Assembly: GCA_019115345.1 (NCBI GenBank)
Contig: DXDV01000228.1
Coordinates: forward strand, 1 to 33,238
Source of the DNA: Candidatus Intestinimonas stercorigallinarum
Lineage (GTDB): Bacteria > Bacillota > Clostridia > Oscillospirales > Oscillospiraceae
Length of the DNA stretch: 33,238 bases
Direction of reading: 5' to 3'
Positions 4,962 through 11,845 of the stretch are shown in pieces. Made by a program: the position numbers and the translations under genes. Within the stretch, counting starts at the first letter, position 1. Each line of letters starts with the position of its first letter. Below the pieces are notes generated by a model. The model was given only the letters and a program-made list of their open reading frames with translations, was not told the origin of the DNA and did not search any database.

Positions 4962-5735
4962 ATGTCCATATCCACCAAGCTGATCCTGGCCAAGCAGCGC
5001 TGCGGCTTTACCAGCGCCGTGCTGGCCCAGCGCGCCGGCGTGCCTGTGAGCACGGTCAATAAGATCCTCTCCGGTCAGACCCGCAGGCCCTCGCCCCAGG
5101 CCCTGGAGCGGCTGTGCCGGGTGCTGGGCATCTCCCTGCCCTACCTGCTCAACGACAACATCGGGGACGAGCGGTTCATCGCCGCCCTCTGCGAAGGGGA
5201 GGGCCTGCGCTACCTCTCCAGCCAGGAGTGGGCCATGGTCCGGGACTACGGCATTTTGACGGTCCAGGGCCGTGAGATGGTGGACGTCCTTTTGGAGCTG
5301 CTCCTGGCCCTCTCTCCCCTCCCCCTGCCCACGGGAGCGCGGCGGATGCTGCTGTGCTTCCAGCCGGTGGCCCAGGGCCAGCGGGGCCCGCTGATGGACG
5401 GCTTTCAATACGCCCCGCTGGATGTGGCCCTGGACAGCGTCACCCAGCAGGCCGACTTCACCATCCTCCTCACCGACCGCTCCATGGTGCCGGTCTACGC
5501 CCCCGGCACCATGCTGGCCGTCAAGCGGGAACAGGCCGCCCCCAGACAGCTGGGGCTCTTTCTCCTGGGCCGGGAGCTCTTCGTCCGCAAGCTCTCCCGC
5601 TCCTCCGGCCGGACCAAGCTGGTGGCCATCAATCTGGAGTACAAGGACATCCCCGTCCACCCGAAGGATGAATTTCGCTGCCTGGGGACCATCCTCGGCA
5701 CGGTGCGGGATTATGTCCGGCTGACCCCCCGGTGA
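4962..5735 (+). CDS. XRE-family regulator with an S24/LexA-like C-terminal domain
   Basis: The 257-residue start (MSISTKLILAKQR) has GGAGGGAGGT about seven bases upstream. Residues 1-60 form a Cro/CI-type helix-turn-helix (AQRAGVPVSTVNKILSGQT). Residues 150-255 resemble a LexA/CI S24 domain: DRSMVPVYAPGTML carries Ser174, and LFVRKL carries Lys210. The 36-residue distance is close to the 37 residues between the Ser and Lys of the LexA dyad. No Ala-Gly or Cys-Gly cleavage site is evident between the two domains, so self-cleavage is doubtful, and the domain may instead dimerise or sense a signal. It is 74 bases upstream of the FHA-FtsW/PBP genes and may control them, though those have their own promoter. 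Confidence 0.85.
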   Translation: MSISTKLILAKQRCGFTSAVLAQRAGVPVSTVNKILSGQTRRPSPQALERLCRVLGISLPYLLNDNIGDERFIAALCEGEGLRYLSSQEWAMVRDYGILTVQGREMVDVLLELLLALSPLPLPTGARRMLLCFQPVAQGQRGPLMDGFQYAPLDVALDSVTQQADFTILLTDRSMVPVYAPGTMLAVKREQAAPRQLGLFLLGRELFVRKLSRSSGRTKLVAINLEYKDIPVHPKDEFRCLGTILGTVRDYVRLTPR

Positions 5736-5773
5736 GGGCGCGGCGATTTTTGCTGTCCCTCCCGCCGGAACTG

Positions 5774-5782
5774 TGGTATACT
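5774..5782 (+). promoter_or_regulatory. Extended -10 promoter of the FHA-FtsW/PBP unit
   Basis: TGGTATACT is an extended -10 element (TGn plus TATACT). Transcription would start near 5789, about 21 bases before the TTG start codon. No clear -35 box is visible at 17 bases. Confidence 0.55.
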
Positions 5783-5809
5783 GCTTGCATCGAAAAGGAG
5801 GGTTGTCCC

Positions 5810-7603
5810 TTGTTCCTGCTTTCCGCCGGAGCCCAGGCGCTCACCGGAGGTCTGGCCGCCTTTTTGAGCGACCAGGCCGCCGTGTCGGCCTGGTATACCG
5901 CCGTGGCGCGGTTTCTCTTCCCCGCCCTGGCCATCCTGATTTTGGCCCGGACCATCCGCTCCCTGCTCACCGTCCCCCACACCCCCGAGGTGTGGGCCCA
6001 TCTCTCCCTGCCCAACGGGGGCACGGAGCCCCTCACCCACTGGGAAAACATTCTGGGCCGCTCCGACGCCTCCGACGTGGTGCTGAGCTACCCCACCGTC
6101 TCCCGGCAGCACGCCGCCCTCATCCGGGACGAGACCGGCAGCTGGACCGTCTACGACCTGGACTCCAAGGGGGGCGTCACCGTCAACGGCGCCGCCGTGG
6201 AGGGCTCCGCCTCCCTGCGCTATGGGGACGTTTTGGCCCTGGGCGGCGTGGAGACGGTGCTCCTCCCCGTGCCGCCCGAGGAGCGGGAGGCCCGCCGGGC
6301 CCGCCGCCAGGCCCAGGAGCGGCCGGTCTCCCCCTGGACGAGTCTGCTCTTCCTCACCCTCTTCCAGCTCCTCACCGCCCTTCAGCTGGTGGCCGCCGGC
6401 GGCAGCGGCGTCCCGCCGGCCGTCCCCGCCGCCTTCTTCTGCCTCGCCGCCGTCATGTGGGGCTACTTCCTGGCCATGCGGGCCATCCGCCGGGTGGGCT
6501 TTGAGATGGAGACCATCGCCTTCTTCCTCTCCACCCTCTCCCTGGCCGTCACCGCCTCCTCCGCCCCCGGCGACCTCTTCAAACAGCTCGTCGCCCTGCT
6601 GCTGGGGCTGGTCCTCTTCGTGGTGCTGGGGGTCTTTCTCCGGGACCTGGACCGGGTCAAGCGCATCCGCTGGCTGGCGGCGGGCGCAGCCATCGTCCTG
6701 CTGGCGGCCACCCTGGTGCTGGGCACCGGGCGGTACGGAGCCAAAAACTGGATCATCCTGGGGCCCCTCTCCTTCCAGCCGTCGGAGCTGGGCAAGCTCT
6801 GCTACATCTTCGCCGGCTCGGCCACCCTGGACCGGCTCTTCCGGAAGCGGAACCTGGGGCTGTTCATCCTCCTCACCGTGGTGTGCATGGGGTGCCTGGC
6901 CCTCATGAGCGACTTCGGCACCGCCGCCATTTTCTTCGTCACCTTCCTGGTCATCGCCTACCTGCGCTCCGGGGACTTCGCCACCCTGGCCCTCATCACC
7001 GGAGCCTGCGTCGCCGGGGCGGGGGTGGTGGTCACCATCAAGCCCTACATCCTCCAGCGCTTCGCCACCTGGGGCCACGCCTGGGAGCAGGCCAACGCCG
7101 GCGGCTACCAGCAGGTGCGCACCATGTCGGCCGCCGCCTCCGGCGGCCTGGTGGGGGTGGGGGCCGGGGAGGGCTGGCTCCACAACGTGGCCGCCGCCGA
7201 CACCGACCTGGTCTTTGGCATGCTCTGCGAGGAATGGGGGCTCCTCATCGGGGCCCTGGCCGTCCTCTCCATCGTCACCCTGGCCGTCTTTGCCGTCCGG
7301 GCCTGCCGGGCGGGGCGGTCCAGCTTCTACACCATCGCCGCCTGCGCCGCCACCTCCCTGCTGGTCTTTCAGACCTGCCTCAACGTCTTTGGCTCGGTGG
7401 ACCTCCTCCCCCTCACCGGCGTCACCTTCCCCTTTGTCTCCAACGGCGGGTCGTCCATGCTCTCCTCCTGGGGGCTGCTGGCCTTCCTGAAGGCCACCGA
7501 CACCCGCCCCAACGCCAGCTTCGCCATCCGGCTCCCCGGCTGGGGAGAGCCGGACCCGCCGGGACCGGCCCGCCCGGAAGAGGAGGTGGATCCCCATGCG
7601 TAA
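5810..7603 (+). CDS. FHA domain-FtsW/RodA/SpoVE fusion protein
   Basis: The TTG start at 5810 (597 residues) follows AAGGAGG by eight bases. Upstream in-frame codons lie across the promoter, so they cannot be coding. A first membrane helix (about residues 31-49) precedes an FHA phosphothreonine-binding domain (about 72-152) with the conserved GR (83-84), SRQH (98-101) and NG (126-127) positions. The rest is a multi-pass SEDS glycosyltransferase with the hallmark WIILGPLSFQPSELGKL and a terminal FVSNGGSSML. SEDS proteins polymerise lipid II into glycan strands and work with a class B PBP, which is the next, overlapping gene. FHA-SEDS-PBP order recalls the actinobacterial fhaB-rodA-pbpA cluster, where Ser/Thr kinases tune wall growth. 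No kinase is encoded in this window. Confidence 0.9.
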   Translation: MFLLSAGAQALTGGLAAFLSDQAAVSAWYTAVARFLFPALAILILARTIRSLLTVPHTPEVWAHLSLPNGGTEPLTHWENILGRSDASDVVLSYPTVSRQHAALIRDETGSWTVYDLDSKGGVTVNGAAVEGSASLRYGDVLALGGVETVLLPVPPEEREARRARRQAQERPVSPWTSLLFLTLFQLLTALQLVAAGGSGVPPAVPAAFFCLAAVMWGYFLAMRAIRRVGFEMETIAFFLSTLSLAVTASSAPGDLFKQLVALLLGLVLFVVLGVFLRDLDRVKRIRWLAAGAAIVLLAATLVLGTGRYGAKNWIILGPLSFQPSELGKLCYIFAGSATLDRLFRKRNLGLFILLTVVCMGCLALMSDFGTAAIFFVTFLVIAYLRSGDFATLALITGACVAGAGVVVTIKPYILQRFATWGHAWEQANAGGYQQVRTMSAAASGGLVGVGAGEGWLHNVAAADTDLVFGMLCEEWGLLIGALAVLSIVTLAVFAVRACRAGRSSFYTIAACAATSLLVFQTCLNVFGSVDLLPLTGVTFPFVSNGGSSMLSSWGLLAFLKATDTRPNASFAIRLPGWGEPDPPGPARPEEEVDPHA

Positions 7604-8969
7604 GATCGAACGGCGGGCCATGCTCTGCCTCCTCCTGGCCGCCGCCCTCGCCCTGGGCCTGGCGGTGTTCTGCTTCCGCTTCTTCCTCAGCGGCGGGCGG
7701 TGGGTCTCCTTCGCCGCCAACCGGCACCTCTACAACAGCCAGGGGGAGCTCTCGGTGGGCCGGGTGCTGGACCGGGACGGGGACGTCCTCTCCTGGGTGG
7801 ACGAGAACGGAGACCGGGTCTACTACGGCGACGCCACCGTGCGGAAGGCCACCCTCCACGTGGTGGGGGACCCCCAGGGCAGGATCGGCTCCGGGGCCCT
7901 GGTGGCCTTTGCCGACAAGCTCTCGGGCTACAACCCCGTCACCGGGGCATACAGCCTCACCGGGGCGGGCAACGACCTCTACCTCACCATCGACGCCCGG
8001 CTCAACTACGCCGCCTACACCGCCATGAACGGTAAAAAAGGGGCGGTGGGGGTCTACAACTATGAGACCGGGGAGGTGCTCTGCCTCCTCTCCACCCCAA
8101 CCTACGACCCCGCGGACCCGCCGGACATCCAGGAGGGGGACCCGCAGTACGAGGGGGTCTACGTCAACCGCTTCCTCTCCGGCACCTTCGTCCCCGGCTC
8201 GGTGTTCAAGACGGTGACGCTGGCCGCCGCCATCGAGACCCTCCCCGACCTCTTCGGCCGCAGCTTCACCTGCACCGGCTCCTGCCAGGTGGGGGACGAC
8301 GTGGTGACCTGCCCCTCCGCCCACGGGGAGATGGACATCGCCGGGGCCTACGCCAAGTCCTGCAACGGGGTCTTTGCCCAGCTGGCGGTGGAGCTGGGGC
8401 CGGAGGTCCTGGAGCGATATTCCCAGCAGGCCGGCCTTACCGGCCGGTACAGCGTCAGCGGGCTGCGCACGGCGGCGGGGAGCTTCGACTTCTCCGGCGC
8501 CACGGAGAACCAGCTTGGCTGGGCCGGAGTGGGCCAGGACGACGACCGGGTCAACCCGGCGGCCATGATGGTCTACATGGGAGCCATCGCCAACGGCGGA
8601 AAGGCCGCCGTCCCCCAGCTGGTCCTGAAAACGGTCACCTCCCTGGGCTTCCCCCCCTCCCTCTACCTCAGCCATAAGACGGGAAGGCTCATCGACGCCG
8701 ACACGGCGGCCACCCTGGCCGACCTGATGGCCCGGAACGTCACCGAGAGCTACGGCGCCGGCCGGTTCCCCAACATGGACCTCTGCGCCAAGTCGGGCAC
8801 CGCCGAGGTGGGGGGCGGCAAGGCCCCCACCTCCTGGTTCACCGGCTTTCTCCGCAACGAGGACGCCCCCTACGCCTTCGCCGTGGTGGTGGAGGAGGGG
8901 GGCAGCGGCGCCCAGGCCGCCGGAAACGTGGCCGCCGCCGTGCTGGACCTGCTGGTCAACGGCTATTAG
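7596..8969 (+). CDS. Penicillin-binding protein, class B transpeptidase (PbpA type)
   Basis: The 457-residue protein overlaps the SEDS gene by eight bases and has GAGGTGG ahead of its ATG. One N-terminal membrane helix (residues 9-31) anchors it outside the cell. The transpeptidase motifs are all present: SVFK at 202-205 (catalytic Ser202), SCN at 255-257, and KSGTA at 399-403. It lacks a large N-terminal dimerisation module, so it is shorter than elongation or division PBPs and closer in size to mycobacterial PbpA. It should cross-link the glycan made by the FHA-SEDS partner. Whether the pair serves division, elongation or sporulation cannot be read from sequence. Confidence 0.9.
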   Translation: MRKIERRAMLCLLLAAALALGLAVFCFRFFLSGGRWVSFAANRHLYNSQGELSVGRVLDRDGDVLSWVDENGDRVYYGDATVRKATLHVVGDPQGRIGSGALVAFADKLSGYNPVTGAYSLTGAGNDLYLTIDARLNYAAYTAMNGKKGAVGVYNYETGEVLCLLSTPTYDPADPPDIQEGDPQYEGVYVNRFLSGTFVPGSVFKTVTLAAAIETLPDLFGRSFTCTGSCQVGDDVVTCPSAHGEMDIAGAYAKSCNGVFAQLAVELGPEVLERYSQQAGLTGRYSVSGLRTAAGSFDFSGATENQLGWAGVGQDDDRVNPAAMMVYMGAIANGGKAAVPQLVLKTVTSLGFPPSLYLSHKTGRLIDADTAATLADLMARNVTESYGAGRFPNMDLCAKSGTAEVGGGKAPTSWFTGFLRNEDAPYAFAVVVEEGGSGAQAAGNVAAAVLDLLVNGY

Positions 8970-9438: not shown

Positions 9439-9495
9439 AAAAAGCCCCCCTCCGGGCGGCGCGGGTCTCCCCGCCGCCGCCCCGGAGAGGGGCTT
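9439..9495 (-). terminator. Terminator of the DUF1538/PII unit
   Basis: On the minus strand GCCCCTCTCCGGGGCGGCG pairs with CGCCGCCCGGAGGGGGGC and is followed by TTTTTC. It lies 18 bases after the PII-like stop codon. Confidence 0.75.
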
Positions 9496-9512
9496 CCATC
9501 GTTTTGTTTTTC

Positions 9513-10199
9513 TCAGCTCTCCCGCCAGGAGAGGCCCATGGCGTGCTCCACGGGCAGGGAGAAGAGGACGCCCCGGCTCTCTGTGGCCGCGCCGGCGGCG
9601 TGGTTCACCGCCTCCATGATGGGCTGGCGCAGTTCCCGGGGGACCAGGATGGTCACGATGTCCTTTTCCGGCCAGACGCCGCTCTCGCCGCTCTTCTCGT
9701 CGGCCTCCCCCATCCGGCGGCCGTGGAGGACGGTGCCGCCTCTGGCCCCGGCCGCCTTGGCGGCCTCCATGACGGCGTCGGTGCAGCCGCCGTTGACGAC
9801 GGCCACGATGAGATCGTTTTTCCACTGCTCAGGCATGGCTTCCTCCTGTTCCTTTCCGGCCCTGTGGGCCTGACCGCAGATGTGCCGCGCCGCCGCGCCG
9901 CCGATGGCGGACAGCGGTACGGTAAACAAGATCCCCTTCCCCGGCACAGCCAGCTGGAGCTTTTCCGCCGCCATGCCCAGCAGGGCCGGGATGGTGTGCC
10001 CGGGGGTCAGGGTAAAGACCACGTCCTTCTCCGTATCTCCCAGGCCCAGGTAGTCCAGCAGCTCGGAATTGGCCGTGCCCCGGCCCGGGGTCCCGTAGTG
10101 GAAGGGCAGGCCGCAGCCGGCGAAGAGCTCGGCGGCCCGGACTCCCTTCCCACGGTCCAGGACGATGACCATGAGTCTCACGCGCGTATCCTCTCTCAT
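9513..10199 (-). CDS. Tandem PII-like signalling protein
   Basis: The 228-residue protein begins with an ATG that overlaps the DUF1538 stop by four bases (ATGA), with GGAGGGG upstream, so translation is coupled. It contains two PII/GlnB-like ferredoxin folds. Unit 1 is about residues 8-107 (LMVIVLDRGKGVRAAELFAG ... GKGILFTVPL). Unit 2 is about residues 128-223 (DLIVAVVNGGCTDAVMEAAK, PEKDIVTILVP, ESRGVLFSLPV). Unit 2 carries a longer T-loop-like insertion rich in Gly, Glu and Lys. PII proteins bind nucleotides and plug or gate membrane transporters, such as GlnK on AmtB and SbtB on SbtA. Here the obvious partner is the coupled DUF1538 membrane protein. Ligand and target are inferred. Confidence 0.8.
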   Translation of the reverse strand: MREDTRVRLMVIVLDRGKGVRAAELFAGCGLPFHYGTPGRGTANSELLDYLGLGDTEKDVVFTLTPGHTIPALLGMAAEKLQLAVPGKGILFTVPLSAIGGAAARHICGQAHRAGKEQEEAMPEQWKNDLIVAVVNGGCTDAVMEAAKAAGARGGTVLHGRRMGEADEKSGESGVWPEKDIVTILVPRELRQPIMEAVNHAAGAATESRGVLFSLPVEHAMGLSWRES

Positions 10200-11728
10200 A
10201 GACGCCCCTCCATCCAGTCGGCCTCGTCGTAGACGAGGATGTCATCTCCGGCCTCCGGCAGTCCGGTCCGCGCCTCGCGGAGGGACTTGCGCTCGTACAC
10301 CAGGCCCAGGACCTGGATGGTCACCAGCGGGGTCATGGCCACCATGGCCACCACGCCGAAGGCGTCGGTGAGGACGTTGCCCCCCACCGCCTCGCAGGCC
10401 CCCATGGCAAAGGGCAGGAGGAAGGTGGCGGTCATGGGCCCGGAGGCCACGCCGCCGGAGTCGAAGGCGATGGCGGTAAAGACCTTGGGCACCCGGAAGC
10501 TCAGACCCAGGGCGATGGCGTAGCCGGGGACCAGGAACCACAGGATGGAGACCCCGGTGAGCACCCGCAGCATGGCCATGGCCAGGGCCGCCGACATGCC
10601 GATGGACAGGGCGGTCCCCATGACCTTTTGGGAGATGGCGCCGCCGGTGAGGGTCTCCACCTGCTGATTGAGCACATGGACCGCCGGCTCCGCCGCCACG
10701 ATGAACCAGCCCACCACCATGCCGATGGGGATGAGCACCCAGTTGTACTGAAGCTGGGCCACCTGAGCGCCGATGAAGTGGCCCGCCGGCATGAAGCCTA
10801 CGTTGACCCCCGTCAGGAAGAGGACCAGACCTACATAGGTATAGATCAGTCCCACCACGATCTTGATGAGCTGCCGCCGCCGCATGCGCAGGGCCGCGAT
10901 CTGGAAGATCCCGAAAAAGATCACGATGGGGGCAAGGCCCAGGGCCACCTCCTCCACATAGGTCGGAAAGCCGGAGAGGAAATACCGCCCCACATCGGCG
11001 GTGGTCTCCAGGTCGGGGATGGCGAAGGGTGTGTAGCTCAGATCGGAGGAATTGTAGCACAGGCCCAGGATCATCACCGCCAGGATGGGCCCCACGCTGC
11101 ACAGCGCCACCACGCCAAAGCTGTCGGCCTCCGAGTCGGCGTGCTTTCGCAGGGCCGCGAGCCCGGCGCCCATGGACATGATGAAGGGGACCGTGATGGG
11201 GCCCGTGGTCACACCGCCGGAGTCGAAGGCCACCGCCAGGAACTCCTTGGGGACCAGAAAGGCCAGGAGGAACACCACGGCGTAGCAGCCGATGAGCAGC
11301 CGGTTCAGCGACCAGCCGTACTTGGCCCGCAGCAGCGCCACCACCAGGAAGAAGCCCACGCCGGCCGCCACCGTGAGGATGATGACCAGGTCGGGCACCG
11401 CCGGCACCTGCCGGGCCAGCACCTGAAGATCGGGCTCGGCAATGGTGACGAAGGCCCCGATGAGAAAGCACAGGGGGGCCAACAGCCAGAGCCTGCGTCC
11501 GTTGGCGATCTGTCCGCCGATGCCGTCGCCAATGGGCATCATGGCGATGTCCGTGCCCAGGGAGAAGAATCCCACGCCCACGATCAGCAGCAGCGCCCCC
11601 ACCAGAAAGAGCATCAGAGAGGCCACCGGCATGGGGGCCGCCGTGAAGCTGAGGATGAGGACGATGCCGGTGATGGGCAGCACCGACGAGAGGGCTTCCA
11701 ACACCTTTTCCTTGAGTTTTTTGTTCAT
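10196..11728 (-). CDS. DUF1538 multi-pass membrane protein, probable transporter
   Basis: The 510-residue start (MNKKLKEKVLEALSS) has GGGAGG seven bases upstream. The protein is an internal duplication of two DUF1538 halves. AFDSGGV...GP..T occurs at residues 167 and 421, AEP..(Q/H)VL..QV at 97 and 346, and FGVVA at 204 and 457. This regular spacing of about 250 residues is the hallmark of inverted- or tandem-repeat transporters. A charged C-terminal tail (about residues 480-510, ending DEADWMEGRL) would be cytoplasmic and available to a regulator. The substrate is unknown. It is coupled to the tandem PII protein and lies downstream of a MarR gene. Confidence 0.85.
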   Translation of the reverse strand: MNKKLKEKVLEALSSVLPITGIVLILSFTAAPMPVASLMLFLVGALLLIVGVGFFSLGTDIAMMPIGDGIGGQIANGRRLWLLAPLCFLIGAFVTIAEPDLQVLARQVPAVPDLVIILTVAAGVGFFLVVALLRAKYGWSLNRLLIGCYAVVFLLAFLVPKEFLAVAFDSGGVTTGPITVPFIMSMGAGLAALRKHADSEADSFGVVALCSVGPILAVMILGLCYNSSDLSYTPFAIPDLETTADVGRYFLSGFPTYVEEVALGLAPIVIFFGIFQIAALRMRRRQLIKIVVGLIYTYVGLVLFLTGVNVGFMPAGHFIGAQVAQLQYNWVLIPIGMVVGWFIVAAEPAVHVLNQQVETLTGGAISQKVMGTALSIGMSAALAMAMLRVLTGVSILWFLVPGYAIALGLSFRVPKVFTAIAFDSGGVASGPMTATFLLPFAMGACEAVGGNVLTDAFGVVAMVAMTPLVTIQVLGLVYERKSLREARTGLPEAGDDILVYDEADWMEGRL

Positions 11729-11785
11729 TGACGCCTCCCTTTTTCCATTTTTTCCGTATCGGGCCATACAGCCGGAAGGCTCCGC

Positions 11786-11845
11786 CCGAGCAAAGTCGAT
11801 GGGCTTTGAGCGCCGGGGCGTTCAAGGCCCATCGATTTTGCTCGG
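11786..11845. repeat. Long inverted repeat upstream of DUF1538
   Basis: Two 24-base arms (CGAGCAAAGTCGATGGGCTTTGA and its complement, plus one outer pair) are separated by 12 bases. Both mismatches are transitions that give G-U pairs on one RNA strand. It lies between the MarR stop (11868) and the DUF1538 start (11728). There is no T-run, so it is either a stable leader structure, a factor-assisted terminator, or a binding site. Confidence 0.6.

Follow-up and report, generated by a model that had tools for sequence, protein, structure and literature searches.

The window (the whole stretch of 33,238 nucleotides that was analysed) carries on its minus strand a gene for a fused DUF1538 membrane protein and, downstream of it, a gene for a tandem PII-like protein (Table 1). 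The start codon of the first gene, at nt 11728, is backed by a GGGAGG sequence just 5', and the two genes overlap by the bases ATGA (10199–10196 on the minus strand), as a preliminary description of this DNA had stated. A strong hairpin followed by Ts was found 3' of the PII gene; the unit therefore probably consists of just these two genes, and the layout suggests that they are co-transcribed. A MarR-type gene lies upstream of the DUF1538 gene, with a second large hairpin in between. The hairpin at 11788–11843 is near-perfect, with an interrupted stem of about 25 bp (z -7.1) and no T run directly after it on the minus strand, and may be a terminator or another element. No Rfam ion or pH riboswitch was found near DUF1538 in 30 sources, and an upstream RNA element was consequently dropped as a clue to the signal. 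Elsewhere in the window (5732–8969), a gene for an FHA-FtsW/RodA-like protein is followed, with an 8-base overlap, by a penicillin-binding transpeptidase gene, i.e., a SEDS-PBP pair to which an FHA domain is fused.

Table 1. Features of the DUF1538-PII locus in the window.
Feature	Position (nt)	Strand	Basis
DUF1538 (UmpA-UmpB-like, fused) membrane protein, 510 aa	10196..11728	-	PF07556 x2, UmpA/UmpB profiles, AlphaFold2 pLDDT 86.7
N-terminal DUF1538 half, UmpA-like, N-terminus predicted inside	11009..11728	-	alignment, charge bias
C-terminal DUF1538 half, UmpB-like, C-terminus predicted inside	10259..11002	-	alignment, charge bias
Shine-Dalgarno-like GGGAGG of the DUF1538 gene	11734..11739	-	read in sequence
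ATGA stop/start overlap, DUF1538 to PII (translational coupling)	10196..10199	-	sequence
Tandem PII-like protein, 228 aa	9513..10199	-	Pfam P-II in second half, AlphaFold2, Foldseek PDB
First PII unit, residues 7-95, divergent, GRGTANSE kept	9915..10181	-	model secondary structure; P1 clade of tree
Second PII unit, residues 128-217	9549..9818	-	model secondary structure, alignment
Strong hairpin then T run, likely terminator	9440..9498	-	z -6.4

The DUF1538 protein matches PF07556 in two stretches (whole-protein E 5e-138; 457.8 bits against a Pfam gathering cut-off of 22.6). The internal duplication previously noticed, with paired motifs about 250 residues apart, was confirmed: AFDSGGV (167/421), AEP (97/346) and FGVVA (204/457) recur at a spacing of 249–254 residues, and the halves are homologous with 34% identity (BLASTP of half against half, E 4e-35). 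In the alignment of fused proteins, the conserved acidic residues are E98 (AEP) and D169 (AFDSGG) in the N-terminal half and E347 and D423 in the C-terminal half, and in the confident AlphaFold2 model (pLDDT 86.7, pTM 0.85) the helices are broken at the AEP and FDSGG motifs of each half. Foldseek retrieved no solved structural relative at E<=0.001, the best TM-scores being about 0.2 or lower, and sequence search found none either. Against the NCBIfam profiles of UmpA (NF041627) and UmpB (NF041628) the protein reaches 159 and 151 bits, the equivalog cut-offs being 490 and 500. Judged by these scores, it is a homologue of UmpA and UmpB and not an equivalog by NCBI's rule; as such a distant relative, it may have a substrate different from that of UmpAB. 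An acidic D-D-I-I-(E/D) tail (residues 495–510, nt 10196–10246) is common to part of the aligned fused proteins and is a possible docking peptide, in a region where the confidence of the model is low.

Membrane orientation was approached by tallying the positive charges (K+R) of the loops on alternating membrane sides. Where DUF1538 is encoded by gene pairs, 45 of 46 first units carry their positive bias on the N-terminal side, the exception probably being L121, a contig-edge locus whose sole unit is in all likelihood a second one, and all second units have a negative bias (42/42). The same holds for the fused proteins, with a bias of +6.0 for the N halves (32/32 positive) and of -8.9 for the C halves (32/32 negative), while loci with a single DUF1538 gene have a bias near zero (+0.4, n=13). 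The charge bias thus points to an opposite membrane orientation of the two units. Seven helices per unit are reported (PMC5484666) and, taken together with the charge series, this is the signature expected when a dual-topology ancestor is followed by an antiparallel pair and this in turn by a fused inverted repeat. The DUF1538 tree agrees in part with such a series: first and second units fall into separate clans, both well supported, to which the UmpA/UmpB assignment corresponds consistently across the family, the fused forms cluster, and the single units lie beside the first-unit clan. The tree was built without an outgroup, so that the direction from single to paired to fused is inferred.

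For the PII-like protein, Pfam P-II matches the second half only (E 3e-6, above cut-off), and the two halves resemble each other weakly (E 7e-5). The AlphaFold2 model (pLDDT 85.8, pTM 0.83) consists of two beta-alpha-beta-beta-alpha-beta units and, in Foldseek, matches GlnK/PII structures, including 2ns1, with a TM-score by target length of up to 0.72. The model thus predicts the PII superfamily fold (double beta-alpha-beta, ferredoxin-like, with T-, B- and C-loops) in both of the fused domains that had been proposed, and excludes that PII folds are absent. The ligand pocket was read from an alignment to solved PII proteins, with counts over 285 units. K58, K90 and R101 bind ATP and 2-oxoglutarate in GlnK (PMC8395244), and R103 belongs with them to the ligand residues of classical PII. 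In the family of the window protein, the position of K90 is occupied by I in 73–91%, that of R101 by G in 69–100%, and that of K58 is mostly not lysine, in all PII classes; R103, at the edge of the profile, was left out of the count. The family does not, therefore, carry the ligand residues of classical PII proteins (GlnB/GlnK). It retains the positions T29, G35, G37, G87, G89 and F92, so that the glycines and the aromatic residue of the adenine pocket remain, while the phosphate-binding residues are gone. A ligand changed from that of classical PII is likely on these grounds. The family has a motif of its own, R-G-T-G-x-H-E plus E-P-E-K, best preserved in single and second units, the first units of the fused class being the most divergent; within the genus of the window, the T-loop motif GxGTGIHE of the second unit is eroded.

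The two families occur together in five or more groups of bacteria and archaea. Among 300 genomes sampled from the phylum of the window, DUF1538 was found in 101 and the PII homologue in 101, with both present in 100. In the other samples a PII threshold of E<=1e-12 was used, picked to exclude ordinary GlnK. In the archaeal phylum of Methanoculleus, DUF1538 was above cut-off in 16 of 120 genomes, and the PII subfamily adjoined it in the same 16. In the Desulfobacterota-type phylum of Pseudodesulfovibrio, DUF1538 was present in seven of 148 genomes, five of them with the PII subfamily; at the remaining two loci adjacent PII units were seen on inspection, one being cut by the contig end. In the Bacillales-type order of Sutcliffiella, 30 of the 32 genomes with DUF1538 above cut-off (200 sampled) had the PII, and no genome of the 200 had the PII subfamily without DUF1538. 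Gene order is constant, with DUF1538 5' of PII, overlapping or separated by a short gap and nearly always adjacent. Close relatives of UmpA/UmpB (315–360 bits, E 1e-94 to 1e-108) have a PII gene directly 3', and alphaproteobacterial plasmids keep the same order, with the PII annotated as 'P-II family nitrogen regulator'. This near-obligate adjacency in bacteria and archaea excludes that the genes are rarely neighbours.

A few loci depart from this arrangement. Three Bacillaceae (L099, L102 and L114) have paired DUF1538 genes and no PII of the same subfamily anywhere in the genome, and in a fourth (L290) no PII gene adjoins the pair. At L288 (3333–3653, minus strand) a PII of the same subfamily stands alone, with no neighbouring DUF1538; the same genome carries a full set as well. 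At L169 (378–3507) roughly 2.5 kb of inserted DNA splits the first DUF1538 gene, the PII genes and the second DUF1538 gene looking intact, and on a Chelativorans plasmid (L282, 3678–3950) the first DUF1538 gene is truncated, while the second one and the PII gene next to it are intact. The sole candidate for a DUF1538-PII gene fusion, which would have been direct proof of partnership (L260), was rejected, since masked bases and frames account for it. In the literature covered, with most subscription papers and bioRxiv preprints outside it, neither a tie of DUF1538 or UmpAB to PII nor a description of tandem PII regulators was found.

Architectures were counted in 169 clusters from two sets, some genomes being in both. 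A single DUF1538 gene stands with a single PII in 11; two DUF1538 genes are accompanied by one PII in 31, by a fused PII in 34 and by two PII genes in 14; fused DUF1538 is accompanied by a fused PII in 68 and by two PII genes in 11. No other combination was found among the 169. Two Desulfobacterota-type loci (L284, 2324–3448; L286, 2388–3548) encode three PII-like units in one protein, the third weak by profile and readable in the sequence, which could be a covalent PII pseudo-trimer; the neighbouring DUF1538 proteins, of more than 700 residues from stop to stop, bear a large insertion. Because loci with two DUF1538 units and one PII, as well as loci with three PII units, exist, the number of PII units is not tied one to one to the DUF1538 halves. 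According to the tree, DUF1538 was fused in approximately one event, plus an independent case (L108), so that the lack of fused DUF1538 with a single PII is weak evidence.

One member pair of the DUF1538 family has a published function. UmpA and UmpB of Halomonas zhaodongensis, co-expressed in antiporter-deficient E. coli, carry out Na+(Li+,K+)/H+ antiport that depends on pH; each is inactive alone, and the pair works there without a PII protein. The paper makes no mention of PII and lists no ORF after umpB in the cloned insert (PMC5484666). DUF1538 is also among the families informative for bacterial growth pH (PMC13255231). A precedent for the regulator is SbtB, whose gene accompanies that of SbtA; it attaches to this transporter from the cytosolic side and, in E. 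coli, makes SbtA less active (PMC10117731). We consider the unit in the window to be an operon of a UmpAB-type monovalent cation/proton antiporter and a dedicated PII-like regulator, analogous to SbtA-SbtB, with a probability of roughly 0.6. In the mechanism we propose, the membrane protein would be an inverted repeat of two homologous seven-helix units in opposite orientation, with the acidic residues at the AEP and FDSGG helix breaks carrying the ions. At other loci the two units come from separate genes, umpA and umpB, or rarely from one unbiased gene whose product probably inserts both ways. The PII protein would be cytosolic, its units assembling into trimers or pseudo-trimers, and by analogy with SbtA-SbtB it is expected on the cytosolic face of the antiporter. 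In one ligand state the T-loops would enter this face and restrain transport, as in SbtB-SbtA and GlnK-AmtB. The ligand is probably adenine-containing or another small metabolite, held without the classical phosphate contacts, and the PII would set the activity of the antiporter according to it. Beyond the observed gene pair, folds, conservation, architecture series, orientation signal and lost residues, we infer the antiport by the window protein, the direct contact, its inhibitory sign and the class of ligand.

A PII-gated antiporter is favoured by the co-occurrence, adjacency and fixed order of the genes, by the PII fold, the orientation series and the antiport of UmpAB, and by the growth-pH listing and the SbtB precedent. 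Against it, a pseudo-twofold transporter and a trimeric regulator have no obvious match, the second PII unit of the window is without part of the family T-loop motif, and the window DUF1538 is distant from UmpA/UmpB; moreover, UmpAB is active in E. coli without PII and a few Bacillaceae have DUF1538 but no such PII, so that transport does not depend on the regulation. The cargo could be another one, e.g., a different cation or a Na+-coupled metabolite moved by the clostridial fused DUF1538 under PII gating: a single DUF1538 pair has been assayed, the window protein scores far below the equivalog cut-offs and its model has no solved relative. We regard this as unlikely, since the acidic residues of AEP and FDSGG show no or almost no variation in the aligned fused proteins and the assignment of UmpA and UmpB units is consistent family-wide. 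Somewhat less probable is a constitutive role of the PII-like protein, as structural subunit or assembly factor of the transporter, in place of ligand sensing, as the near-obligate pairing, the ATGA overlap and the lost classical ligand residues might suggest. Because UmpAB works in E. coli without PII, which a few Bacillaceae also lack, the PII appears to be a modulator and not an essential subunit, and the conserved pocket and T-loop motif of single and second units (R-G-T-G-x-H-E, PGxGI) point to a ligand site that has been kept.

The preliminary description had assigned each PII unit to one DUF1538 half. Such symmetric matching would agree with the loci counted, where two PII units invariably go with fused DUF1538, and one with single DUF1538, but it does not accommodate the 31 loci with two DUF1538 and one PII, or three PII units beside two DUF1538 units. 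Moreover, DUF1538 was fused essentially once or twice, and the halves are not equivalent docking sites, because with opposite orientations they would present two different surfaces to a cytosolic regulator; we therefore give this scheme very little credence. Even less is to be given to classical nitrogen regulation, with a GlnB/GlnK-like sensor of ATP/ADP/2-oxoglutarate acting on a transporter of nitrogen compounds. It could invoke the Pfam P-II match above cut-off and the automatic annotation, against which stand the replacement of the K58, K90 and R101 positions that bind ATP and 2-oxoglutarate in GlnK (PMC8395244) and the cation antiport of the tested family member. What holds of the earlier reading is its PII folds, its gene neighbourhood and its SbtA-SbtB-like operon, which the gene layout supports; the transport is no longer uncharacterised, given the published antiport of UmpAB (PMC5484666), and the pairing of one PII unit with each half is not supported.

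The pairing suggests a widespread signal-controlled ion antiporter. We see an even chance that it represents a widespread, undescribed class of PII-controlled cation/proton antiporters, in which a PII-like subfamily of new ligand specificity would gate an inverted-repeat transporter whose fold has no solved relatives, and in which the PII copies (one, two, fused two, fused three) would have grown alongside the duplication and fusion of DUF1538. Nitrogen and carbon metabolism is where PII proteins are most familiar; if the reading is true, PII signalling would reach pH and ion homeostasis, and a transporter family whose characterisation comes from a single organism would gain a dedicated regulator. 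Many 'P-II family nitrogen regulator' genes beside DUF1538 would then be unlikely to regulate nitrogen. Single, paired and fused DUF1538 also offer a clean natural series for the evolution of inverted-repeat transporters.

Among known systems, UmpAB belongs to the same Pfam family as the window protein and has its paired units in the same order, both needed for activity, which we count as a likeness to the two DUF1538 halves; the window protein differs in being fused and in scoring far below the equivalog cut-offs. With SbtA-SbtB the locus shares a transporter and a PII-like protein in one operon, as seen in the ATGA overlap and in the adjacency at nearly all DUF1538 loci, and a PII-superfamily regulator whose ligand range departs from the classical one. 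SbtA, however, is a homotrimer performing Na+/bicarbonate symport and SbtB has a single domain. AmtB-GlnK likewise joins a membrane transporter to a PII-family partner of the same fold, but the window PII is tandem, with K90 and R101 replaced, and its partner is not an ammonium channel. NifI1/NifI2 of nitrogenase resemble the window PII in setting two different PII units side by side; their target is a soluble enzyme and not a transporter. Finally, the dual-topology families EmrE/SMR and Fluc comprise an unbiased single gene, an oppositely oriented gene pair and a fused inverted repeat, the same series of genes as in DUF1538; they differ from it in fold and size and lack a PII partner.
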